Assembly (NCBI RefSeq): GCF_002355655.1 | Contig: NZ_AP017569.1 | Location: forward strand, 1,612,001 to 1,676,000 | Source of the DNA: Halorubrum trapanicum | Lineage (GTDB): Archaea > Halobacteriota > Halobacteria > Halobacteriales > Haloferacaceae | Direction of reading: 5' to 3' | DNA length: 64,000 bases | Shown here: positions 24,524 through 54,872 of the stretch, piece after piece | Numbering within the stretch: position 1 is the stretch's first letter | Layout of the letters: every line of letters starts with the position of its first letter | Notes under the pieces: generated by a model | The model's database searches: none | What the model was told of the DNA's origin: nothing | What the model saw: only the letters and a program-made list of their open reading frames with translations | Translations under genes and position numbers: made by a program

Positions 24524-26119
24524 CTACGAGAACTTCCGGACCGTCATTTCGAGGGTGTCGAGGTCGAGGATCGGCGCGTAGCCGGCGTCTGGGTCGATGT
24601 TGACGGACTTCTGGAAGTCGGTCTGGGCCTGCCAGCAGCCGGAGTTGACCGCGAGCACGTTGTGGTACTTCCCCCACCCGAGCTTGTGGACGTGGCCGGT
24701 GTGGAACACGTCGGGCACGTCCTCCATCACGAGGTAGTCGCGCTCCTCCGGCGCGACGCGGGTGTGACCGCCGAACTGCGGCGCGACGTGGCGCTTCTTC
24801 AGCAGCTGGTACATCGCCTTGTGCGGCTCGTCGTAGCTCGCCTTCTCCTCGGGCAGCTCCGCGATCACCTCGTCGAGCGAGACGCCGTGGTACATCAGCA
24901 CCTCGACGCCCTCGACCGAGACGGTGGCCGGGTTCGAGACGATCCGCGCGTCGTGGACGTCCAAAATCTCCCGGATCTCGTCGTCGAACCCGGGCTGCGG
25001 CTCGGCGAGGCGGACCGCGTCGTGGTTGCCCGGGATCATCACGACCTCGGTGTCGGCGGGCACCTCCTTGAGGTGTTCCGCGAAGACCTCGTACTGCTCG
25101 TAGATGTCGACGATGTCCAGCTCCTCGTCTTGGTTCGGGTAGACCCCGACGCCCTCGACCATGTCGCCCGCGAGCAGCAGGTACTCCACGGGGTCGGCCT
25201 CGGGGGTGTGGAGCCAGTCGGTGAAGCTGTGCCACGCGTCGGCCATGAACTCGTCGCTGCCGACGTGGACGTCGGAGATCAGCGCGGCCTGGACGTGGCG
25301 GTCGACCCCGCCGGGGCGGTGGGTCCGGGGGACGTCGGGGAAGTGGAGCGAGTCGGCGAAGAGGATGCCGGCGTCGTCGGCGAGCGTCCCCTCGACCGCG
25401 ACGCACTCGTCTAAGAGGATCTCGTCGACGACGTCGGCGAGGCCCTTGTCCTTCATCACGAGGGCGGGGAAGGTCCCGGTCGTGTCCTCCAGCTCGATCA
25501 GCCAGTGGCCGGACTTCGTGGAGCGGACGTCGTTGACGAGGCCGATCATCGCGGCGTCGCTGCCGCCCGGCATGTCCGCGATCGCCTCCGCCGGGCGGTG
25601 GTTGACGCGGCCGCGGAGGATCTTCGAGAGCCGTTCGTAGCGGTCGCGGAACGTCGTGACGAAGTCGGCGTACTCGCCGGTCCCGGTGCTGCGGCCGGTC
25701 ATGTCGTTACCGACCTCTAAGTCGCGCAGGTCGGGGTCCCGGGACCGTTCGGAACCGTCGTTCGCGGCGGTTTCGGGGTCAGAAGCGGCGTCGACGGTCG
25801 TGGAGTCGGTGGCGTCGTTCGTTGCGGCCCCGGACGCGGTCTCGGTCGCCGCAGATTCGGAGCCTATAGACCCCTCCGTTTCGACTGGAGATTGTCCGGG
25901 TTCGTCCGGGGAGGCGGCCGATCTGTCGGCGTCGCCGATCGCCTCGCGGACGTGGTCGGCGGTGATCCGGAGGGCGTCGTCGGGGGCGCGGTCGACGGCG
26001 GCCGCGACGGCGGCGGTCGGATCGGTCGCGCCCGCGAGGAGGGTGACCGCCTCGCGCTCGGCGTTGTAGCCGCGCTCGGCGAGGGCTTTCGCGATCCGGG
26101 CGTTCGACTCCAGCGGCAC
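24524..26119 (-). CDS. polB: DNA polymerase D small subunit (DP1), 3'-5' exonuclease
   Basis: A 531-residue subunit of the archaeal replicative polymerase PolD. The calcineurin-like phosphoesterase core is intact: AALISDVHVGSDEF, LLLAGDMVEGVGVYPNQ, VMIPGNHDAVRLAEP, LMYHGVSLDEV and HTGHVHKLGWGKYHNVLAVN. An OB-fold lies before it (GLVNDVRSTKSGHWLIELED). The N-terminus has a small helical domain, then about 85 acidic residues, probably disordered. A GTG at 26119 (VPLESNARIAKALAERGYN) is taken as start because it begins the conserved domain. Its neighbours sec11 and orc1 make the usual oriC1 gene neighbourhood of haloarchaea. Confidence 0.95.
   Translation of the reverse strand: MPLESNARIAKALAERGYNAEREAVTLLAGATDPTAAVAAAVDRAPDDALRITADHVREAIGDADRSAASPDEPGQSPVETEGSIGSESAATETASGAATNDATDSTTVDAASDPETAANDGSERSRDPDLRDLEVGNDMTGRSTGTGEYADFVTTFRDRYERLSKILRGRVNHRPAEAIADMPGGSDAAMIGLVNDVRSTKSGHWLIELEDTTGTFPALVMKDKGLADVVDEILLDECVAVEGTLADDAGILFADSLHFPDVPRTHRPGGVDRHVQAALISDVHVGSDEFMADAWHSFTDWLHTPEADPVEYLLLAGDMVEGVGVYPNQDEELDIVDIYEQYEVFAEHLKEVPADTEVVMIPGNHDAVRLAEPQPGFDDEIREILDVHDARIVSNPATVSVEGVEVLMYHGVSLDEVIAELPEEKASYDEPHKAMYQLLKKRHVAPQFGGHTRVAPEERDYLVMEDVPDVFHTGHVHKLGWGKYHNVLAVNSGCWQAQTDFQKSVNIDPDAGYAPILDLDTLEMTVRKFS
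25869..25893 (-). other. ORB-like motif inside polB
   Basis: On the minus strand the sequence reads AATCTCCAGTCGAAACGGAG followed by GGGTC. This matches the haloarchaeal origin-recognition-box form TCCAnnCGAAACnnAGGGG seen at the origin 3.8 kb away. It falls in the disordered acidic linker of PolB, so it may be tolerated by the protein. Whether Orc1 binds it is unknown. Confidence 0.5.
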
Positions 26120-26250
26120 GATACCCGAAAGGAGGGTCGCGGGCAAAACCGTTCCGGAGACGTCGGAGGGGCGAGCGTGTGGGGCCGCGAGCGAGGGCGG
26201 AATCCGCGCGACCCGGAAGCTTATGAACGGAACCCTCCAAAGGCGACGTA

Positions 26251-27288
26251 ATGGACGAAGGGGATCGGCCGACGGACACCGACGGGTCGGCCGGTCGAGA
26301 CGAGCGAACCGAAGATCACTCAGGGGCGACATCCGACGGGTCGGATGACGGGGGTCCCGACGGGGCGGACGACGGGACGGATGACGGGGTTCCCGACGAA
26401 TCCGACCGCGCGGTCTCCGGTAGCTCGGGCGACGGTCCCGAGACCGGGCGCGAAGTCGACCTCGGGGACGAGCCCGAATCATCCGGGGAAGCCGTTGTTT
26501 CCGGCGAATCCGACATCGGGAGCGAAGCGCAGGGCGCACCGGAATCGGTGGGAGGTCCCGCGTTCGAGACGGAAGAGACGACGACCGCCGACGAGTCGCT
26601 TCTACACCGGTTCCGTCACGACCGGGAGGGCGCGCTGATGTGGATCCGGGAGATGTTGGCGAGCGTCGGCGTCGTCCTCCTGATCGGACTGTTGCTGTTC
26701 GGCGTCAGCGGCGTGTGGCCGCCCATGGTCGCCGTCGAGTCGGGGAGCATGGAGCCGAACATGCAGGTCGGCGACCTCGTGTTCGTCACCGAGCCCGGGC
26801 GGCTCGCGCCGGACGCGGCCGAAAACGGCGTCGGGGTCGTCACCCACGAGGTGGGCCAAGAGGTCGATTACCGGACGTTCGGGTCCTACGGGTCGGTGAT
26901 GATATACACGCCCCCGGGGCGGACCGGGTCGCCGATCATCCACCGGGCCATGTTCCACGTTACCGAGGGCGAGAACTGGTACGACCGCGCAAACCCGGAG
27001 TATCACAACGCCGTCGACTGCGGATCGCTCGCCAACTGTCCGGCGCCGCACGACGGGTACATCACCCTCGGCGACAACAACGGCGCCTACGACCAGGCCA
27101 GCGGCCTCTCGCCGCCCGTCAGGGCCGAATGGGTGAACGGCGTGGCCCGCCTCCGGGTCCCGTATCTCGGCTACATCCGGCTGATCGCGACGGGACAGGT
27201 AGAGCTGAACGAGGCGATAACGCGGACGGTCGGGAGCGCCCTCCCGGCGGTGGAGTCGGCACTCGTCTCGTCCGCCCCGGCGGCGTGA
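26251..27288 (+). CDS. sec11: Signal peptidase I (Sec11-type) with long acidic N-terminus
   Basis: A 345-residue membrane protease that removes signal peptides from exported proteins. Residues 1-115 are an acidic, Ser/Gly-rich disordered extension facing the cytoplasm. One membrane anchor follows (VGVVLLIGLLLFGVSG, about 139-154). The catalytic Ser lies in VESGSMEPNM (Ser166) and the His in IIHRAMF (His231), both as in ER/archaeal Sec11 enzymes. The Asp box is ITLGDNNGAYD (Asp275). A second hydrophobic stretch near the C-terminus (YLGYIRLIATG) may touch the membrane. It is divergent from polB and convergent with orc1 in the conserved origin neighbourhood. Confidence 0.93.
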   Translation: MDEGDRPTDTDGSAGRDERTEDHSGATSDGSDDGGPDGADDGTDDGVPDESDRAVSGSSGDGPETGREVDLGDEPESSGEAVVSGESDIGSEAQGAPESVGGPAFETEETTTADESLLHRFRHDREGALMWIREMLASVGVVLLIGLLLFGVSGVWPPMVAVESGSMEPNMQVGDLVFVTEPGRLAPDAAENGVGVVTHEVGQEVDYRTFGSYGSVMIYTPPGRTGSPIIHRAMFHVTEGENWYDRANPEYHNAVDCGSLANCPAPHDGYITLGDNNGAYDQASGLSPPVRAEWVNGVARLRVPYLGYIRLIATGQVELNEAITRTVGSALPAVESALVSSAPAA

Positions 27289-27329: not shown

Positions 27330-29213
27330 TCAGTTGTCGAACCGCGCCTGGACGAACGGCTGCGCGTTCTCGATGTCGCCGAGCCGCGAGTCCGACAGGA
27401 GGACCGCCTCGGTCTCCTCGACGGGCACGGAGAGGCCCATCTCCTTCGTCCGGCCGTAGCGGCCCTTCGAGACGACGACGGCGTTGACGATCCCGAGCAT
27501 GTCGAGCTCGCTGATGAGGTCGGTGACCCGCCGCTGGGTCAGGACGTCGGCGTCGATCTCCTCGCAGAGCCGCTTGTAGATGTTGAACACCTCGCCGGTG
27601 TTGATGTTGTGAACACCGTTCTTTTCGAGGAGGATGACGGCGAATAAGACGATCTTGCTCTGGGTGGGGAGGGTGCGGACGACCTCGACGACGCGGTCGA
27701 GCTCGATCTTGTCTTGGGCCTGTCGGACGTGTTTCTCGGCGACGATCTCGGCCTGCGAGCGCTCGGCGAGTTCGCCGGCGGTGCGGAGGAGATCGAGCGC
27801 ACGGCGCGCGTCGCCGTGTTCCTGCGCGGCGAAGGCGGCGCAGAGGGGGATCACGTCGTCGGTGAGCGCGTCGGGCTTGAACGCGGTGTCGGCGCGGTGC
27901 TGGAGGATGTCGCGGAGCTGGTTGGCGTCGTACGGCGGGAAGACGATCTCCTCCTCGCCGAGGCTCGACTTGACGCGGGGGTCGAGGAAGTCGGTGAACT
28001 TCAGGTCGTTCGAGATCCCCATGATCGAGATCCGCGAGCGGTCGAGCTCGGAGTTCATCCGCGAGAGATTGTAGAGGGTGTCGTCGCCGCTCTTCTCGAC
28101 GAGCTTGTCGATCTCGTCGAGCATGATCACGACCACGCGCTCGTGGTAGTCGACCGCCTCGAAGAACGTCGAGTAGACGCGGTCGGTTGGCCACCCCGTC
28201 ATCGGGACCTCCTCCATCTCGTCGGCGTCGTCTTCGAGGGTTTCGATGCGCTCGTCGAGCTCGTCGACAGAGTCGAACTCGGTGTCTGCGAGGGCGGCTG
28301 CCGCGTCTTGGCCGGCCGTCTCGTCGGCGTTCGCCGCGTCCGCGCGGAGCTCTTCGAGGCGCTCCAGCCGGTCGGCGATCACCGCCTGGTTCTCCTCGAT
28401 GAACGTGTTCGCGAGCTGGGCGAGGACGCGGTACTGTGTATCGGTCACCTCGCAGTTGATGTACTCGACCTCGCAGGGGACGTCGTACTTCTGGGAGGTG
28501 GACTCGAGCTCCTGGGAGACGAACTTCGCCGAGGCGGTCTTCCCGGTCCCCGTCTTCCCGTAGATCAGGATGTTCGAGGGGGTCTCGCCGCGGAGCGCGG
28601 AGACGAGGATCGTCGCCATCCGGTTGATCTGGTCGTTGCGGTGCGGGAGCTCGTGCGGGGTGTACGAAGGGCGGAGGACCTCCTTGTTCTCGAAGATCGG
28701 TTCGCCCGAGAGGAGGTCGTCGAACAGGCCCTGGTTGTCTTCGTCGTCGTCGAGGACGACGCCGTCGAAGTCGACGTCGGGCGACGAGCGGTCGCGACCG
28801 CCGTTGTCGAGCCCCGCCGTTTCGGGTCGAGCGTCGGTCGAGAGGGAAGCCGTGTCGGCGTCCGATTCGATCGAGTCGACGTCCGGCGTATCGAGATCGG
28901 ATCCGTCGTCGACGTCGGGGTCGGTATCGGGGTCGGTTTCGATTGGGTCGTCGGAGTCGACTTCGGTCGGACTGTCGGGCACTGTTTCGGTTGGAGCGTC
29001 GGGATCGAAATCCTCGATATCGGTGTCCTCAGCCGCTGAAGCGCCGTCCTCGAACTCGTCGGTTCCGGAGCCCTCGACGCCGAAGCTGTCGGGGTCCGAA
29101 GTCGAAGAGTGACTTGGCGACGAGTCCTCGGAGTCGCTGCTGTGGTCCGATTCGTCGTCGTCGTCCGGGTCGATGCCGCCGTCGGTCCGCGGTGTGTGAT
29201 CGCCTTCGTCCAT
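27330..29213 (-). CDS. orc1: Orc1/Cdc6 replication initiator with long acidic N-terminal extension
   Basis: A 627-residue AAA+ initiator that binds ORB elements and loads the MCM helicase. The Walker A is ILIYGKTGTGKTASAKF (about 215-231), Walker B is VVIMLDEIDKLVEKSG, sensor regions are SIMGISNDLKFTDFLDPRVKSSL and GDARRALDLLRTAGELA, and a C-terminal winged helix ends the protein. Residues 1-165 are almost all Asp/Ser/Glu/Thr, which makes the protein longer than most Orc1 proteins (about 400-600). An extra charged, coiled-coil-like insert (ERLEELRADAANADETAGQD and following) lies between Walker A and B. It is transcribed away from the adjacent origin, the usual arrangement for the main initiator at oriC1. 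Confidence 0.96.
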   Translation of the reverse strand: MDEGDHTPRTDGGIDPDDDDESDHSSDSEDSSPSHSSTSDPDSFGVEGSGTDEFEDGASAAEDTDIEDFDPDAPTETVPDSPTEVDSDDPIETDPDTDPDVDDGSDLDTPDVDSIESDADTASLSTDARPETAGLDNGGRDRSSPDVDFDGVVLDDDEDNQGLFDDLLSGEPIFENKEVLRPSYTPHELPHRNDQINRMATILVSALRGETPSNILIYGKTGTGKTASAKFVSQELESTSQKYDVPCEVEYINCEVTDTQYRVLAQLANTFIEENQAVIADRLERLEELRADAANADETAGQDAAAALADTEFDSVDELDERIETLEDDADEMEEVPMTGWPTDRVYSTFFEAVDYHERVVVIMLDEIDKLVEKSGDDTLYNLSRMNSELDRSRISIMGISNDLKFTDFLDPRVKSSLGEEEIVFPPYDANQLRDILQHRADTAFKPDALTDDVIPLCAAFAAQEHGDARRALDLLRTAGELAERSQAEIVAEKHVRQAQDKIELDRVVEVVRTLPTQSKIVLFAVILLEKNGVHNINTGEVFNIYKRLCEEIDADVLTQRRVTDLISELDMLGIVNAVVVSKGRYGRTKEMGLSVPVEETEAVLLSDSRLGDIENAQPFVQARFDN

Positions 29214-29214
29214 G

Positions 29215-29240
29215 TGAACCCCTCTGTTTCAGGTGGAGAC
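29215..29240 (-). other. ORB element at orc1 start
   Basis: On the minus strand: GTCTCCACCTGAAACAGAGG then GGTTC. It overlaps the region just before the orc1 ATG (29213), so Orc1 binding here could repress its own gene. It is one of three ORBs at this origin. Confidence 0.75.
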
Positions 29241-29669
29241 GGCCAGATATGTCGCTTGAGACGCCGTCTCCCGTCGGAAATACGCATTCGCGGTCGAAAT
29301 CGAGACCGACCACGTCCAGTTGATACAGTCGAACCAGATGAAGAGATGGTACAAAAGTGTTCCTCTCTGGAGTTGAAACGTCCCCCTCGCACGAGATGTC
29401 GGGGCGATCGCGAGGCGGTTCGGGTTGATCGGTGGGACGGTCGAACCGGTCGAACAGTCGAGAGAAGAGGAACGGCAAGCGTGGAGATATCGTTGGCTTT
29501 TGAAGGGGTTCCTACGGTGTGGCGGGCTTCAGCCGTATCAGCGGCTGACCTCTTAGGCTCGTTATCGCCCGTGACTACCCGTACTCAGACCGGCAGTTCC
29601 GTTGGACAGTTTCGATCCATCGACTTCGACACCCGATTTCCCGTTCCGTCGTGTCGACTCGATCGGGGA

Positions 29670-29700
29670 GACCCCCACACCCCTTTGTTTCGGGTGGAAC
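29670..29700 (-). other. ORB element with G-string, left of the AT-rich core
   Basis: On the minus strand: GTTCCACCCGAAACAAAGGG then GTGTGGGGGTC. The first 23 bases are identical to the ORB at 29903-29930 on the opposite strand. The G-string points outward from the AT-rich segment. A degenerate plus-strand copy (cgtcgaaacagggtggtggg, 29702-29721) adjoins it. Confidence 0.85.
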
Positions 29701-29734
29701 GTCGAAACAGGGTGGTGGGGGTTGGAGGCCGGAT

Positions 29735-29870
29735 TATAATAGCGGTAGTTTTATAATACAAACCATACAACAGTACCCTCGACAATCCTCTCTAGAATAT
29801 ATTTGTGTTGGTGTAGTTGTTTTATTTGTAGATCGAGTAGGAATTATCTTGGTGGACCTAGATCGACCTC
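29735..29870. other. AT-rich duplex-unwinding region
   Basis: This is the most AT-rich stretch near the origin (ttataatagcggtagtttta and ctctagaatatatttgtgtt among others), lying between the two inverted ORBs. In otherwise very GC-rich DNA it is the obvious candidate for initial strand separation. No open frame is present. Confidence 0.8.
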
Positions 29871-29902
29871 CAGCACCGACCTCACCCCCCGGCAGATTGT
29901 GG

Positions 29903-29932
29903 GTTCCACCCGAAACAAAGGGGTGGGGGGCT
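29903..29932 (+). other. ORB element with G-string, right of the AT-rich core
   Basis: Plus strand: GTTCCACCCGAAACAAAGGG then GTGGGGGGCTC. It is the inverted partner of the ORB at 29670-29700, about 200 bases away, and completes the symmetric origin core. Confidence 0.85.
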
Positions 29933-30064
29933 CCACAAAGGCGCGGGAGGCTCCCGAACGATATTCGATAGACCGACGTCACGTCCTGCCAGTCGGCACT
30001 CCACCGCCGGACCGTTCCGACCGACAGCGCCCAGCCACCGAATATCACGGTCGACGCCGATAGT

Positions 30065-43537: not shown

Positions 43538-44719
43538 ATGCGCGTAATCGCCAAGTTCGGCGGCACGAGCCTCGGGAGCGGCGACCGGATCGAGCGCGCG
43601 GCCGACTCCGTGGCGAGCGCGGTCGCGGCCGGCCACGAGATAGCGGTCGTCGCGAGCGCGATGGGGTCGACCACGGACGACCTCCTCGACGACATCACCT
43701 TCGAGACGGACGACGCCGACCGCGCCGAGATCGTCTCGATGGGCGAGCGCACCAGCGTCCGCATGCTGAAGGCCGCGCTGTCGGTCCGCGACGTCGAGGC
43801 CGTCTTCCTCGAACCCGGGCACCCCGACTGGCCGGTGATCACGGACGAGCGCGGCGAGGTCGACGTCGCGGAGACGAAGAAGCGCGCGCGGCAGATCGCC
43901 GCCGAAATGGACGGCGTCGTCCCGATCATCACCGGGTTCCTCGCGGAGGACCACGACGGCAACGTCACCACGCTCGGTCGCGGCGGGTCGGACACGACCG
44001 CGGTCATGCTCGGCAACTACATGGACGCCGACGAGGTCGTCATCGTCACCGACGTGGAGGGCGTGATGACCGGCGACCCGCGGGTGGTCGAGGGCGCGCG
44101 CAACGTCGGCCAGATCACCGTCGACGAGCTCCGCAACCTCTCCTTCCGCGGCGCCGAGGTGGTCGCGCCCTCCGCGCTCTCGTACAAGGACGAGGACCTC
44201 GACGTCCGCGTCGTCCACTACCAGCACGGGGACCTGCTCCGCGGCGGCACCCGGATCGAGGGCGAGTTCGAGAGCCTGATCGACATGCGCGAGGAGCCGC
44301 TGGCGTGTCTCACCATCGCGGGCCGGGCGATCCGCAACCGGCCGGGGATCCTCTCCGAGCTGGCGAACGCGCTGCGCGCCGAGGAGATCAACATCGACGC
44401 GGTCGCCTCCGGGATGGACTCGGTCACCTTCTACGTCGACGTCGACGTCGCCGAGACCGCGGAGGCGCTGCTCCACGAGGCGGTCGTCACCGACGAGGCG
44501 CTCTCCTCGGTCACCGTCGCCGACCCCATCGCCGTGATCCGCGTCACGGGCGGCGAGCTCCCCAACCAGTCCGGCGTCATCCAGGACATCATCGCCCCCA
44601 TCGCGGACGCCGGCATCAACATCATCGACCTGATCACGAGCGCGACCTCCGTCGCGGTGTTCGTCGACTGGGACGACCGCGAGGAGGCGCTCGAAATCGT
44701 CCAAGACCGGTTCGACTGA
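43538..44719 (+). CDS. lysC: Aspartate kinase
   Basis: A 393-residue enzyme phosphorylating aspartate, the first step toward lysine, threonine and methionine. The kinase domain shows VIAKFGGTSLGSGDRIERAA, VSMGERTSVRMLKAAL, PIITGFLAEDHDGNVTTLGR, GGSDTTAVMLG and VTDVEGVMTGDPRVVEGARN. Two ACT domains follow (LTIAGRAIRNRPGILSELAN and IRVTGGELPNQSGVIQDIIA), which normally bind end products for feedback control. The ATG at 43538 matches the usual start. Confidence 0.96.
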   Translation: MRVIAKFGGTSLGSGDRIERAADSVASAVAAGHEIAVVASAMGSTTDDLLDDITFETDDADRAEIVSMGERTSVRMLKAALSVRDVEAVFLEPGHPDWPVITDERGEVDVAETKKRARQIAAEMDGVVPIITGFLAEDHDGNVTTLGRGGSDTTAVMLGNYMDADEVVIVTDVEGVMTGDPRVVEGARNVGQITVDELRNLSFRGAEVVAPSALSYKDEDLDVRVVHYQHGDLLRGGTRIEGEFESLIDMREEPLACLTIAGRAIRNRPGILSELANALRAEEINIDAVASGMDSVTFYVDVDVAETAEALLHEAVVTDEALSSVTVADPIAVIRVTGGELPNQSGVIQDIIAPIADAGINIIDLITSATSVAVFVDWDDREEALEIVQDRFD

Positions 44720-44910
44720 GTCAAACGTCCCTGTTCGACGCTTAGACGGCCGAGTTCGACTCTGTCGAAATCCTTCATACCAGATAGGAAACGGCTGCCG
44801 AATACAGCGGGTGTAGTCATCGCGGGAACTAGGTTATTTACTCTATTTTGATCTTGAATCAGCCGATAGAATACGCGTGTGAATGTATTATGACAGTGTC
44901 CCCACTATTC

Positions 44911-45354
44911 TTAAGTTGGGATGAAAGATGCTATATCTGTCTTTGTGAGATACAACAGCAATATATGTAACAAAACGCCCATAACAATTGAGTAGGTGAA
45001 GTTTGCAATAGTTCCTGTTAAATAATAACTGGTGTCCCCAGTATCAATATCATCAGCCCTGACAATTGATTTAGCCGCAAATATCACTCCTAGAGCTGTA
45101 TATGCTTGTATTAGCATGAGTGTGAGGATAAGAATATTCTCAAGTTTGCCAATTGCAGTTCCAGTATCCTTCTGATCATCATCTATTTCAACACCCGCGT
45201 ACCGGAATACGTAGTTTACTACCCAAGTGCTAGAAAAATGTAATAAAATATACCATAATAGTATAAATATTATAAGTGAAATTTGGTGATTCAGAGCATG
45301 GATGAGTATTGAACCACCGTTGCCGGCCTCCTGGAATGATATCGAACTGTTCAT
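44911..45354 (-). CDS. Small polytopic membrane protein, partner of SatD-like gene
   Basis: A 147-residue protein with about four membrane helices (for example ISLIIFILLWYILLHFSSTW and IVMGVLLHILLLYL). The conserved-looking segment GTAIGKLENILILTLMLIQA followed by YTALGVIFAAKSIVR resembles, from memory, the end of DUF3307-type membrane proteins that accompany SatD in bacteria (GxxIGxLER...AIGFxxAAKSIxRF). It lies 25 bases downstream of the SatD-like gene in the same direction and AT-rich island, so the two form a cassette. Its role is unknown. An effector or transport function is possible. Confidence 0.75.
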   Translation of the reverse strand: MNSSISFQEAGNGGSILIHALNHQISLIIFILLWYILLHFSSTWVVNYVFRYAGVEIDDDQKDTGTAIGKLENILILTLMLIQAYTALGVIFAAKSIVRADDIDTGDTSYYLTGTIANFTYSIVMGVLLHILLLYLTKTDIASFIPT

Positions 45355-45379
45355 AGTATTATTTTCTGGAAAGGCATTA

Positions 45380-46033
45380 TCAATTTATCTGGTCATAATT
45401 TTCCAAGATTTTTGAGAGTCTACGTTCTACACCCAAAACCTGTTCAACATTTGATTTATTCAAATGGTAAGATACTGTTTGTGCCGAAATGTTGGCTTCC
45501 TCTGCTATTTCCGACTGACTCTTCGATTTATCGTATTGACGGACAACATCCATCGTCGTATCTCCCCATTCAGAACGTATGATTTCAAGTAGGTTTATTT
45601 GGTCAGACACCAGAGTGTCAATATATTCTGAGTTTCCGCTTAATTGAAACTTTAATTCATTATTTTCAAGCTCAAAAAGAACTATATCGGCTCTTGCAAA
45701 GGCTGGCCCGTCCATCTGAGAAATGTCCGATGCTCCTTTGTTCACATCGATTTTATCAGTGACCGCCGCCATTCTGAACTGTTCTGGATAGAGAGTTCTT
45801 GAGAAGATCTTCTGGATATCCGCAATTGGTTTGACCGAGTTGAGAACAGCTCCAAACTCATCAATTCCTTTGAGTACGTCAAACTCGGCCCGCATACTGT
45901 CTTGATATCTCTGATTAGCCTCTGAAATTGCGGTATCCAACCTCTCTCTGAACGCTTCTCTGTCCTCTATTTTCTGTGAATCTACTACATCCGCGAGCAC
46001 GACGCAGTACTGTTTTGTCACGTTCTGATTCAT
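45380..46033 (-). CDS. SatD-family protein with C-terminal HTH
   Basis: A 217-residue protein. It opens with YCVVLADVVDSQKIEDREAF, the SatD-family start, followed by FDVLKGIDEFGAVLNSVKPI. Asp15 in LADVVDS and the pair DE at 58-59 lie where class III nucleotide-cyclase-like palm domains place metal-binding acids. This is a pattern resemblance, not proof. The C-terminus has a helix-turn-helix (QSEIAEEANISAQTVSYHLN). It has AT-rich codons and was likely acquired together with the membrane protein downstream. The function in archaea is undescribed as far as I know. Confidence 0.78.
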   Translation of the reverse strand: MNQNVTKQYCVVLADVVDSQKIEDREAFRERLDTAISEANQRYQDSMRAEFDVLKGIDEFGAVLNSVKPIADIQKIFSRTLYPEQFRMAAVTDKIDVNKGASDISQMDGPAFARADIVLFELENNELKFQLSGNSEYIDTLVSDQINLLEIIRSEWGDTTMDVVRQYDKSKSQSEIAEEANISAQTVSYHLNKSNVEQVLGVERRLSKILENYDQIN

Positions 46034-46353
46034 TCAATCATTCTCTTTGAAACTGCCTTTCTAAGATGTTTCCTTTGATTCTGGCCCTTCCACATATATA
46101 AATCTGGGTGGTAAATTGGCTTTGAGATAATGTTATTTCTATGAATGGTCCAATACTTTATACTTCTGAGCGCGGTTAGATATTCCTTCCACATCCACTC
46201 TCCACAACTTTCTTTTTATATAACCACGAAAGTGTTGTATACACTCTCTGTGTTGACCGATCCGGAACAGTTGAATCCTTACGCGGTTCCGTGCGAGACT
46301 CACGCGCTCTATTCAGCAGACCCTTGAATCCGGATTTTATCCGTCTCCGGCCC
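46034..46353. other. Intergenic right edge of the AT-rich island
   Basis: About 320 bases. The left part is AT-rich (for example tctttttatataaccacgaa) and holds the promoter of the SatD-like gene on the minus strand. GC-rich DNA resumes near 46.25 kb. A 60-codon open frame at 46145 has no credible features. The word cttgaatc occurs twice (46273 region and 46324) but no flanking partner was found on the left side. Confidence 0.5.
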
Positions 46354-46827
46354 TCAGCCGCCTTCTTCGGGGTCGAACCGGTACCGCGTCGTCGGCGCGC
46401 CCTCGATCCGCGGTCCCGAGCCGACCCCCGCGAACCCGACGGCCTCGGCCGCGTCGATCGCGGTCCCGTCGGTCGGGAGGACGGCCTCGACCGTCATCCC
46501 CTCCCGGGTCGCGAACCGCACCGGCTCCTCGAACAGGCGCTCGACCGCGTCGGGGTCGCCCTCGACGTTCGTCACGTGGACGGTCCCGTCGCGCACGTCG
46601 AACGCGACGAACCCCGCGACCGCGTCGACCGGGGTGTCGGCCTCGTCGTCGGCGCTCCGACCAGCCGGTTTCGCCCCGTCGCCCGCGGGGTCGCGCCCGG
46701 TCGACTCGGCCGTCACCGCGACCCGGACCGACCGGTCGTGGATCATGTTCCGGACGACGCCTTCGGGTCGGCCGGTCATCGATCCCAGGGCCGCGGCGTC
46801 GGCCTCGACCGCGTCACGAACTCGCAT
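46354..46827 (-). CDS. GNAT-like acetyltransferase or related protein
   Basis: A 157-residue protein starting MRVRDAVEADAAALGSMTGR, the usual opening of GNAT N-acetyltransferases (RxAxxxDAxxL). AVAGFVAFDVRDGTVHVTNV and the later VEAVLPTDGTAIDAAEAVGF AGVG segment fit strands and the last helix of the fold, but a clear acetyl-CoA P-loop (Q/RxxGxG/A) is missing and an insert (about residues 48-66) interrupts the middle. The start at 46827 is chosen over an upstream ATG by this motif. Activity is uncertain. Confidence 0.65.
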   Translation of the reverse strand: MRVRDAVEADAAALGSMTGRPEGVVRNMIHDRSVRVAVTAESTGRDPAGDGAKPAGRSADDEADTPVDAVAGFVAFDVRDGTVHVTNVEGDPDAVERLFEEPVRFATREGMTVEAVLPTDGTAIDAAEAVGFAGVGSGPRIEGAPTTRYRFDPEEGG

Positions 46828-46915
46828 ACCTCCGCACTCTCGCCGGGCGACATAAAATCGCCGCACGCTCGCCGCGACCGGATGATTTTAACGACCGGCG
46901 GACGCAGGAACGCGC

Positions 46916-47005
46916 ATGTCCAAATCAACGAAGATCGTGGTCGGAACGGTCGGCGTCTCGGCCGTCCTCTCGGTGCTCATCGTCCTCTCGTACGTCCTCG
47001 CCTGA
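46916..47005 (+). CDS. 29-residue single-TM microprotein
   Basis: The ATG at 46916 encodes MSKSTKIVVGTVGVSAVLSV and nine further residues (LIVLSYVLA), ending TGA at 47003-47005. A positively charged start and one membrane helix make a plausible microprotein. It follows a TATA-like ATTTTAACG about 30 bases upstream, and its stop overlaps the ATG of the next gene (TGATG), the usual coupling seen in this genome. The function is unknown. Confidence 0.7.
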   Translation: MSKSTKIVVGTVGVSAVLSVLIVLSYVLA

Positions 47006-48610: not shown

Positions 48611-48637
48611 CACACCCCACCGTTTCGTTTGGAGATT
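48611..48637 (-). other. ORB-like motif upstream of the MgtE-like operon
   Basis: Minus strand: AATCTCCAAACGAAACGGTG then GGGTGTG. It keeps the TCTCCAnnCGAAAC core and the G-run of the origin ORBs. It lies in the divergent promoter region between 48496 and 48721, so it could affect transcription if Orc1 binds. Confidence 0.5.
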
Positions 48638-51644: not shown

Positions 51645-54110
51645 ATGGAACCGAGTTCGCTCTCCGGGCTCCCCGCGGGCGTCGGCGAGGCGCTCGAAGC
51701 GGAGGGCGTCGCGGAGCTGTACCCGCCCCAGCAGGCGGCGGTCGAGGCTGGCGTCGTCGACGGCGAGAGCATCGTCGCGGCCGTGCCGACCGCGTCGGGG
51801 AAGACGCTGATCGCGGAGCTGGCGATGCTCTCCTCGATCGAGCGCGGCGGGAAGGCCTTATATATCGTTCCGCTGCGCGCGCTCGCCAGCGAGAAGAAGG
51901 CCGAGTTCGAGCGCTGGGAGGAGTTCGGCGTCACGGTCGGCGTCTCGACGGGCAACTACGACTCCGACGGCGAGTGGCTCGCGAGCCGCGATATCATCGT
52001 CGCCACCTCGGAGAAGGTGGACTCGCTGATCCGCAACGGCGCGCCGTGGATCGACGACCTCACCTGCGTCGTCAGCGACGAGGTCCACCTCGTCGACGAC
52101 TCCCACCGCGGGCCCACCCTCGAAGTCACCCTCGCGAAGCTCCGGAAGGTGAACCCCGGCCTCCAGACGGTCGCGCTCTCCGCGACCGTCGGCAACGCGG
52201 ACGTCATCGCCGACTGGCTCGACGCCGAGCTCGTCGAGTCCGACTGGCGCCCCATCGAGCTCCGGACGGGCGTCCACTTCGGCAACGCGATCGAGTTCGA
52301 CGACGGGAGCCGGCGCGAGGTGCCCGTCGAACGCGGCGAGGACCAGACCGCGCGGCTCGTCGCGGACGCCCTCGACACCGAGGAGGACGGGCAGGGCGGC
52401 TCCTCGCTCGTCTTCGTCAACTCCCGGCGCAACGCGGAGTCGTCGGCCCGCAAGCTGGGCGAGGTCACGGCGCCCCGCCTCACCGGCGACGAGCGCGACC
52501 GCCTCCGCGAGCTGGCCGAGGAGATCCGCGGCGTCTCCGACACCGACACCTCGGAGGACCTCGCGGACGCCGTCGAGCAGGGGTCGGCGTTCCACCACGC
52601 CGGCCTCGCGAGCGAACACCGGAGCCTGATCGAGGACGCGTTCCGCGACCGCCTGATCAAGTGCGTCTCCGCGACGCCGACGCTCGCGGCCGGCGTCAAC
52701 ACCCCCGCCCGCCGGGTGATCGTCCGCGACTGGCGCCGCTACGACGGCGAGTTCGGCGGGATGCAACCCCTCGACGTCCTCGAAGTCCACCAGATGTGCG
52801 GGCGCGCGGGCCGCCCCGGGCTCGACCCCTACGGCGAGGCGGTGCTGCTCGCGAACAGCGCCGACACCCGCGAGGAGCTGTTCGACCGGTACGTCTGGGC
52901 CGACCCCGAGCCGGTCCGCTCGAAGCTGGCGGCCGAGCCCGCGCTCCGGACGCACGTCCTCGCGACGGTCGCCTCGGGGTTCGCGGCCACCCGAGACGGG
53001 CTGCTCTCCTTCCTCGATAACACCCTCTACGCGACCCAGACCGACGACGAGGGGCGCCTCGCCGCGGTCACCGACACCGTCCTCGACTACCTCGAAGTCA
53101 ACGGCTTCGTCGACCGCGACCGCGACGGCGGGAGCGAGGGCCTCGCCGCGACCGGCATCGGCCACACCGTCTCGCGGCTCTACCTCGACCCGATGAGCGC
53201 GGCCGAGATCCTCGACGGCCTGCGGACCGTGGCGGACGGCGACGACGAGGACGCCGCCGGCGACTTCGTCCCCGCCGACGGCGCCGGCGCGGACGCCGAC
53301 CCCGACGCGGGCGCCGACGAAGCCGGGTTCACGACGTACACGCGGGCGGACGACGAGGCGGACGGCAACGCGGACGCCGAGACGGCGGCTTCGAACGACG
53401 GCGCCGACGCCCCCGCGGTCACCCCGCTCGGCCTCTATCACCTCGTCAGCCGGACCCCCGACACCTACGAGCTGTACCTGAAGTCCGGCGACCGCGAGGA
53501 GTACACCGAGGTCTGCTACGAGCGCGAGGCGGAGTTCCTCGGCGACGTGCCCTCCGAGTACGAGGACGTGCGCTTCGAGGACTGGCTCGCCGCGCTGAAG
53601 ACGGGCCGCCTCTTGGAGGACTGGGCGAACGAGGTCGACGAAGACCGGATCGCGGAGCGCTACGGCGTCGGACCGGGCGACATCCGCGGGAAGGTCGACA
53701 CCGCCGAGTGGCTCCTCCGCGCCGCCGAGACGCTCGCCCGCGACGTCGAGGGGATCGACGGCGACGTCGTCGTTCAGGTCCGCGAGGCTCGCAAGCGGCT
53801 GGAGTACGGCGTCCGCGAGGAGCTGCTCGACCTCGCCGGCGTCCGCAACGTCGGCCGCAAACGCGCCCGCCGCCTCTTCGAGGCCGGCATCGAGAGCCGC
53901 GCCGACCTCCGGGAGGCGGACAAGGCGGTGGTGCTGGGCGCGCTCCGCGGCCGCGAGCGCACCGCCGAGCGCATCTTGGAGAACGCCGGCCGCGAGGACC
54001 CGTCGCTCGACGGCGTCGATCCGGACCGCTCGGCGAGCGCGGCGGCGACCGCGGGCGCTGACGCCGACGGCGACGGCGACGGGCAGGCGAGTCTGGGTGA
54101 TTTCGGATGA
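51645..54110 (+). CDS. hel308: ATP-dependent DNA helicase Hel308
   Basis: An 821-residue superfamily 2 helicase acting at stalled forks. Motifs in order are the Q-motif region [107 protein letters not shown] and [19 protein letters not shown]. Winged-helix, ratchet and C-terminal HhH domains ([20 protein letters not shown]) follow. An acidic Ala/Asp insert (about residues 545-605) is extra compared with most relatives. The start at 51645 matches homologues, with a TATA-like GGTTTAAATC about 30 bases upstream. Confidence 0.96.
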
Positions 54111-54700
54111 CTGACCCGGCTGTCGGCGCCGACGGCGAGCCGGCGCCCGACCCCGCGGTCCGCCTCGTCGACGGAACGTTCGCGATCGCCGACCTCGACG
54201 CGTTCCTCGCCGATCTCGACGAAATCGCCGTGGAGACCGGCGCGATCGTCCAGGCGTTCGACGCCGGCCTCGTCGTCTCCGCGACGCAGCTCCGCGAGGC
54301 GGCGCGGCTCGCCGCGCGGTCGATCGCCCGCGGCGAGGCGGTCGCGCGCGACCCCGGCGTCGAGGTCCTCCTGTACGCCGCCGGTCGCCGCCAGATCGAC
54401 CGGGCGCTCGAACTCGGCGTCTCGGAGGGCGAGCGCGCCGCGGTCGTCCTCGTCGCGGACTTCGGCGAGGTCCCCGGCGCCGACCGACCGACCGCGGACC
54501 TCGACGGCGCGGTCGAGGCGGTTCGGGAACTCGCCGCCGGCTCGACCGAAATCACCGACGGAGCCGACCTCGGGACCGCGTTCGACGAGGACCGCGTCCG
54601 GGAGTTCTACGGCGTCACCGACCGCGAACTCGCCGCCACGAACGGCGACCTCATCGACGTCGTCCGCGAGCGCGTCGCGCTGCTCGACGTCGAGAAGTGA
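54107..54700 (+). CDS. KEOPS complex subunit Cgi121
   Basis: A 197-residue protein of the Cgi121/TPRKB family, a subunit of KEOPS that makes t6A in t[43 protein letters not shown] and [20 protein letters not shown] are the family core. The C-terminal [20 protein letters not shown] is also typical. Its ATGA overlap with hel308 matches the arrangement in other haloarchaea. Members are often about 160 residues, and the extra length is at the acidic N-terminus. Confidence 0.9.
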
Positions 54701-54724: not shown

Positions 54725-54750
54725 CCACCCCTTCGTTTCGACTGGAGACC
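54725..54750 (-). other. ORB-like motif near tRNA-Gln
   Basis: Minus strand: GGTCTCCAGTCGAAACGAAG then GGGTGG. This is the closest match to the haloarchaeal ORB core among the sites outside the origin. It lies in the short spacer between the cgi121 stop and the tRNA-Gln 3' end. Confidence 0.5.
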
Positions 54751-54799
54751 GCGAGACGGGGTCGCCGCTCGGTTCCAAGCGAAGCGAAAACGAGAGAAG

Positions 54800-54872
54800 T
54801 AGTCCATCCTGGATTCGAACCAGGGTCGTTGCCCCCAGAAGGCAACAGGATTGGCCACTACCCCAATGGACT
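54800..54872 (-). tRNA. tRNA-Gln (anticodon CUG)
   Basis: The reverse complement folds with acceptor AGTCCAT/ATGGACT, a D-arm around GGGGTAGTGGCC, anticodon stem TTGCC/GGCAA with loop TTCTGGG (anticodon CTG), and T-arm CCTGGTTCGAATCCAGG. The discriminator is A and no CCA is encoded. The sequence resembles haloarchaeal tRNA-Gln. No intron is present. Confidence 0.95.

Follow-up and report, generated by a model that had tools for sequence, protein, structure and literature searches.

The chromosome of Halorubrum trapanicum appears to carry two classes of binding site for the replication initiator Orc1 around the origin oriC1. Within the 64,000-nucleotide stretch of DNA that we analyzed (the window; contig NZ_AP017569.1, positions 1,612,001 to 1,676,000), two origin recognition boxes (ORBs) with extended G-strings enclose the origin, and short ORBs with the same core but no extended G-string lie at the start of orc1, inside the gene for the small subunit of DNA polymerase D (PolD; DP1), and at more distant single sites. 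We observe directly the positions of these ORBs, their conservation, their clustering, the constraint on them at the DNA level, and the difference in their G-strings. From sequence, we propose with a probability of about 0.6 that the G-string ORBs initiate replication and that the short satellite ORBs serve in autoregulation and titration by binding Orc1, much like DnaA boxes and datA. The origin contains these elements:

29670..29700, minus strand: origin ORB proximal to orc1 (left) with outward extended G-string; inverted-repeat arm, 0 mismatches to the core
29701..29902, unstranded: AT-rich putative duplex-unwinding segment between the ORBs, from its AT content
29710..29721, plus strand: inner G-rich element, by sequence the counterpart of enhancer repeat III of Haloarcula hispanica oriC1 (PMC3936714)
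29743..29753, plus strand: CGGTAGTTTTA, a conserved motif (consensus CGGTGGTTTTA) of the AT-rich segment, 43 nt inward of the ORB proximal to orc1
29883..29892, minus strand: opposite inner G-rich element, by sequence the counterpart of repeat IV (PMC3936714)
29903..29933, plus strand: origin ORB distal to orc1 (right) with outward extended G-string; inverted-repeat arm

An earlier note on this DNA had described two ORBs identical over 23 bases, with outward G-strings and an AT-rich segment between them, and its coordinates are right. The inverted arms, 31 nt each, are 94% complementary and 202 nt apart; they share the 23-mer GTTCCACCCGAAACAAAGGGGTG, followed by the outward G-strings TGGGGG and GGGGGG. 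The ORB 20-mer has three matches in the window compared to none in 100 dinucleotide shuffles, and a search of the whole 3.08-Mb genome at ≤1 mismatch returns only the origin pair and the ORB at the orc1 start codon. Between the arms, AT content reaches 67.5% over 120 nt (from 29731), compared to 32.6% for the window. A comparable ORB pair is present in 75 of 81 loci (80 named relatives plus the window), with a spacing of 158-256 nt and a median AT content of 66% in the middle (75 loci). Inner G/C-rich runs occur on both sides in 29 of 75 relatives and on one side in 38. Of 75 oriC1 copies, 41 match the motif CGGTGGTTTTA(T) at ≥9 of 11 positions, mostly at 39-46 nt inward from the ORB proximal to orc1; nine matches were reached in only 6 of 375 shuffles. 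The oriC1 intergenic region was found in all 34 other genomes of the genus that were searched. Ten Haloferax loci (L094-L096, L099, L102, L105, L106, L108, L110, L111) have an additional short ORB between the orc1-proximal origin ORB and orc1, at a nearly fixed spacing of ~154 nt from the former.

The second class of sites is represented by four ORBs in the window:

25871..25889, minus strand: short ORB inside the DP1 coding sequence, where it encodes SPVETEGS; core match, rare codons kept
29219..29238, minus strand: short ORB without extended G-string, a proposed autoregulatory site, ending 5 nt before the orc1 ATG (29213)
48615..48633, minus strand: remote short ORB between divergent DUF7090 and MgtE-domain genes; core match, in a neighborhood that recurs in three other species
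54728..54746, minus strand: remote short ORB flanked by the converging 3' ends of cgi121 (54107-54700, plus strand) and tRNA-Gln (54799-54872, minus strand); core match, conserved synteny

What separates the two classes is the G-string. Six or more G residues in the 10 nt after the core are found in 133 of 142 origin ORBs, compared to 0 of 74 ORBs at the orc1 start, 4 of 48 in DP1, and 4 of 56 at remote sites. Given that autonomous replication from H. hispanica oriC1 requires the extended G-string (PMC3936714), short ORBs would be expected to bind Orc1 and yet not fire.

The short ORBs are also concentrated around the origin. The strict core TCCANNNGAAAYNNNGGGG occurs six times in the window, where shuffles predict 0.01, and seven times in the 3.08-Mb genome; all seven sites lie ≤42 kb from oriC1, and a reversed-pattern control yields none. 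On the chromosome (C1), they fall at 1637871 (DP1, window 25871), 1641219 (orc1 start), 1641680 and 1641905 (origin), 1660615 (window 48615), 1666728 (window 54728), and 1683570 (beyond the window). The earlier note had none of the core ORBs at 25871-25889, 48615-48633, and 54728-54746, nor the inner G-rich arms at 29710-29721 and 29883-29892. Taking 24 further genomes, less one in which the ORB pair and orc1 are apart, together with this one, we find that 53 of 72 distant core sites (>5 kb from oriC1) lie at 5-50 kb, where 2.06 are expected; with one genome per genus, the count is 18 of 29. As expected for titration, putative initiator sites are in excess of chance near the origin but outside it. 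A dense ORB cluster like oriC2D of H. hispanica, immediately downstream of the initiator gene, is absent; the core sites occur singly, across 46 kb. Because the orientation of the remote sites relative to the origin is mixed, we claim no directional role for them. Separately, in two Haloferax-type genomes (G116, locus L219; G083, L223), an ORB core that is apparently intragenic lies ~4.7 kb from oriC1 on the opposite side, and both genomes have it in the same open frame.

The locus could instead be a plain oriC1, its satellites being functionless: either chance matches or the decayed remains of origin copies. The satellites are, after all, single 19-nt sites, a few far-off core matches do resemble chance, and gene context around oriC1 is generally conserved. 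We consider this explanation unlikely, given the excess of sites at 5-50 kb and the reversed-pattern control, which finds no site in this genome and 0-1 per strand in the remaining genomes. The fixed distance of one short ORB to the orc1 ATG, the rare codons retained in DP1, and the synteny of the cgi121/tRNA-Gln site across families, all described below, also argue against it.

The third ORB, which the earlier note had assigned to the orc1 start region, lies just before the ATG. Of 80 named haloarchaeal loci, from many genera, 74 share with the window an ORB that precedes the orc1 ATG by 4-13 nt, and hits from further genera and families of the class add more orc1 examples. All 75 sequences have the same TCCA, GAAA, and GGG columns, an invariance that is only partly due to hit selection, which allowed ≤5 mismatches in 20; none of the 70 columns upstream exceeds 0.71 bits. 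We do not use the class-wide count of an ORB followed by an ATG (256 of 292) as a rate, since some of these matches are G-string origin ORBs with a chance ATG. The distance from the origin pair to the ATG varies by hundreds of bases among loci, while the start-codon ORB stays put, and a regulatory role suits this third ORB better than membership of the initiating pair. This is the arrangement expected of autoregulation: a conserved initiator site at the start of the initiator's own gene. About 22 nt ahead of the ORB, the sequence is weakly T/A-rich, which would place the start of transcription within the ORB. We looked for the same arrangement elsewhere: in three of six regions examined outside Halobacteria, an Orc1 homologue has ORBs upstream but none at a fixed position relative to the start, and in this genome the remaining orc genes show no oriC1-type ORB at the start codon in the upstream regions listed.

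Could the start-codon element be a conserved ribosome-binding or promoter element that merely resembles an ORB? Its GRGGGG precedes the ATG by 4-13 nt, which would be a plausible spacing for a Shine-Dalgarno signal. TCCA and GAAA, however, are invariant in 75 of 75 sequences though they have no Shine-Dalgarno role, and the order and spacing of the parts are the same as in the origin ORBs, making this explanation highly improbable.

Within DP1, the ORB appears to be held at the DNA level. A protein-level search for P.E[TM].G in DP1 linkers yielded 44 copies, in which the codons are GAA in 44 of 44, GGG in 44 of 44, and CCA in 43 of 44; in the conserved part of the same genes, these codons are used at 24%, 25%, and 6%, respectively. 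The sole exception, a CCG (L107), has an ORB on the opposite strand nearby. In several genera, DP1 contains an inverted ORB pair 54-69 bp apart, the second copy of which encodes PSVSTG or similar. We rejected a cause at the protein level: the opposite-strand copies give this different peptide, and an unrelated PAEI[TA]G of DP1 uses other codons. Because one DNA motif yields two peptides on opposite strands, selection on DNA is favored, and we prefer this reading of the codon data. The DP1 site would then be an unusual case of a regulatory DNA site, as we propose it to be, kept within coding sequence.

The remote sites recur in defined neighborhoods. An ORB lies 8-100 nt from cgi121 in 11 of 12 loci examined, drawn from Halorubrum, Haloferax, and a third family (f12); in the twelfth, whose genus differs from the window's but belongs to its family, the distance is 441 nt. 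In most loci, tRNA-Gln lies on the far side of this ORB. Haloferax-type and f12 genomes differ in the distance and side of the cgi121-side ORB, which stays within ~45 kb of oriC1. Recurrent sites also include the ORB in the divergent DUF7090/MgtE region (four species), one near serA (eight genomes of Halorubrum), and, in a different genus, one close to a short gene that looks like a nuclease (serA and nuclease are names read from sequence).

These contexts bear on whether the short ORBs form an Orc1 transcriptional regulon, covering orc1 and nearby genes, for which titration is not the purpose. The ORB at the orc1 start codon fits such a regulon, as do the location of the 48615 site in a divergent promoter region and of some other remote sites near gene starts; in Sulfolobus, Orc1-2 is a transcription factor acting on its own promoter, through a different motif (PMC9738581). 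The most deeply conserved remote site fits poorly: the ORB at 54728 lies between two 3' ends and can be the promoter of neither cgi121 nor tRNA-Gln. The DP1 site lies within coding sequence. A regulon is a possibility that we regard as doubtful. The set might also mark the origin domain for chromosome organization or segregation, as parS does around oriC in bacteria, with Orc1 as the marker protein. Scattered single sites at varying positions, confined to ~50 kb on either side, would suit this role, and in one genome (G008) the serA-side and cgi121-side sites are swapped in order and still inside the zone. Titration predicts the same pattern, and we judge a marker role to be quite unlikely.

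Our preferred reading, autoregulation together with titration, suggests the following mechanism. By analogy with known archaeal oriC1, Orc1 monomers would sit with fixed polarity on the two G-string ORBs and MCM would be loaded onto the AT-rich segment. The second class of ORB, which retains the predicted Orc1-binding core TCCANNNGAAAYNNNGGGG without the extended G-string, would act at the orc1 start, in DP1, and at single sites within ~45 kb. At the start codon, bound Orc1 would block the start of orc1 transcription or translation, a form of negative autoregulation. The DP1 and remote short ORBs, copied early as forks cross their first tens of kb, would soak up free Orc1, and this sequestration would delay re-initiation. 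Orc1 binding, repression, and titration at the short ORBs are what we infer from the sequence. We consider it an even bet that the scheme is class-wide, as a two-tier Orc1 landscape in which firing G-string ORBs are combined with origin-centered short ORBs that sense or limit Orc1, tying the supply of initiator to duplication of the origin.

Several observations weigh against this interpretation. The genomes in the clustering analysis are related, such that the printed p-value is not usable literally, although the effect size is not in doubt, and three genomes (G037, G043, G055) show weak or no clustering. In another (G056; L228, L229), an ORB pair lies ~160 kb from the orc1 and DP1 ORBs; here the origin and the initiator gene may be separated, or there may be a second oriC1-type origin. 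Some remote sites lie within promoters and could regulate genes instead, and at the orc1 start codon the GGGG of the ORB could contribute to a signal of the Shine-Dalgarno type.

The origin itself is of an already known kind, and the locus is almost certainly the conserved haloarchaeal oriC1, the putative main origin of the chromosome. All of the sequence features of haloarchaeal oriC1 were found: inverted G-string ORBs, an AT-rich interior, inner G-rich repeats, and an orthologous orc1 next to DP1 and sec11. With the loci of relatives, they bear out the oriC1-type origin named in the earlier note. The neighboring genes are as follows:

24524..26116, minus strand: PolD small subunit (DP1); NF003116, 971 bits, residues 142-671 of open reading frame 24524-26539; the start is approximate, being the first residue matched by the family model
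26251..27288, plus strand: signal peptidase I (sec11-type); TIGR02228, 49.4 bits, under the curated cut-off of 51.85
27330..29213, minus strand: orc1/cdc6 initiator gene of oriC1; NF001625 (653 bits), TIGR02928; Cdc6_C and Cdc6_lid

In the polB-sec11-orc1 neighborhood of the earlier note, orc1 stands by its match to NF001625, the gene taken for polB encodes the PolD small subunit and not a family-B polymerase, and the match to sec11 is below its cut-off. The matches to NF001625 and NF003116, with the 80 named haloarchaeal loci, place this Orc1 in the oriC1 clade, with DP1 and sec11 as conserved neighbors. In Haloferax volcanii, DP1 is known to adjoin orc1 and oriC1 (PMC7776575).

The earlier note had also named the lack of a skew change as a sign against an origin here; GC skew does flip at the origin, from +0.060 (20-29 kb) to -0.047 (30-40 kb). 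It is negative to the right of the origin although the genes there are on the plus strand, whereas elsewhere on the chromosome plus-strand genes go with slightly positive skew. When sampled in 20-kb stretches every 71 kb, the strand-corrected cumulative skew of the chromosome peaks in the stretch that holds oriC1 (40 stretches; weak support at one per 71 kb). This extreme argues against a dormant oriC1 in a chromosome driven from another orc-linked origin, for example near C1:3900 or C1:1767041. There are several orc/cdc6 genes in this genome, including further ones on the same chromosome, and dormant origins are known in Haloferax mediterranei (PMC4595724); even so, dormancy here seems very unlikely. 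Two smaller contigs carry three (G000:C2:25244-38156) and two (G000:C3:97733-100658) orc/cdc6 genes, of which those at C3:99678 and C2:29800 have the same first 50 residues and frames of 342 codons. Positions 44000-47000 of the window form an island of low G+C content (~50% compared to ~67-70%) with negative skew.

If true, our proposal would provide an archaeal counterpart of DnaA autoregulation plus titration. It bears on how archaea avoid immediate re-firing, for which the only haloarchaeal proposal we found is titration by a cluster beside oriC2. The start-codon ORB and small satellite set (four in the window) make autoregulation and titration at the universal oriC1 testable in the tractable Haloferax volcanii.

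In its core, the locus resembles oriC1-cdc6A of H. hispanica and oriC1 of H. volcanii, with inverted G-string ORBs, an AT-rich interior, inner G-rich repeats, and adjacent genes for orc1 and the PolD small subunit. In H. hispanica, two inverted ORBs bound the AT-rich region that makes up the minimal oriC1; autonomous replication depends on both of these ORBs and on both G-strings, with an inner G-rich inverted repeat serving as an enhancer (PMC3936714). The published accounts that we found do not describe start-codon, intragenic, or distant ORBs such as those seen here. Our literature search, whose coverage was incomplete and left several key papers outside, found no report of start-codon, DP1, or remote ORBs in haloarchaea. 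Published ORB searches considered G-string ORBs only, in intergenic regions beside orc/cdc6 genes (PMC3528665, PMC4595724), and because they demanded both the G-string and this adjacency, short ORBs could have been missed. We therefore regard the satellite set, provisionally, as a new version of initiator autoregulation and titration.

The AT-rich segment is comparable to that of Sulfolobus oriC1 with its ucm (PMC12141716), where an ORB pair surrounds an AT-rich segment holding a further conserved motif. CGGTGGTTTTA could be the haloarchaeal counterpart of ucm, although the likeness is one of place only and CGGTGGTTTTA has no known binding protein.

The nearest archaeal precedent for the satellites is the oriC2D cluster of H. 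hispanica (PMC3936714, PMC4010727), a negative control element with proposed Cdc6E titration; an ORB-rich region restrains oriC2 in that species (PMC3936714). Both systems have initiator sites outside the origin core that are proposed to hold surplus initiator. oriC2D packs 11 ORBs into 722 bp just downstream of cdc6E, whereas here single short ORBs are scattered over tens of kb, in coding and 3'-3' regions, around oriC1. As in bacterial dnaA autoregulation, datA, and DnaA-box clusters, there is a box at the start of the initiator gene and there are boxes elsewhere on the chromosome. The initiator and box (Orc1 and ORB) are unrelated to those of the DnaA systems and their function here is putative. 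The satellite ORBs, conserved across the class, suggest self-limitation of the initiator comparable to that of bacterial DnaA.
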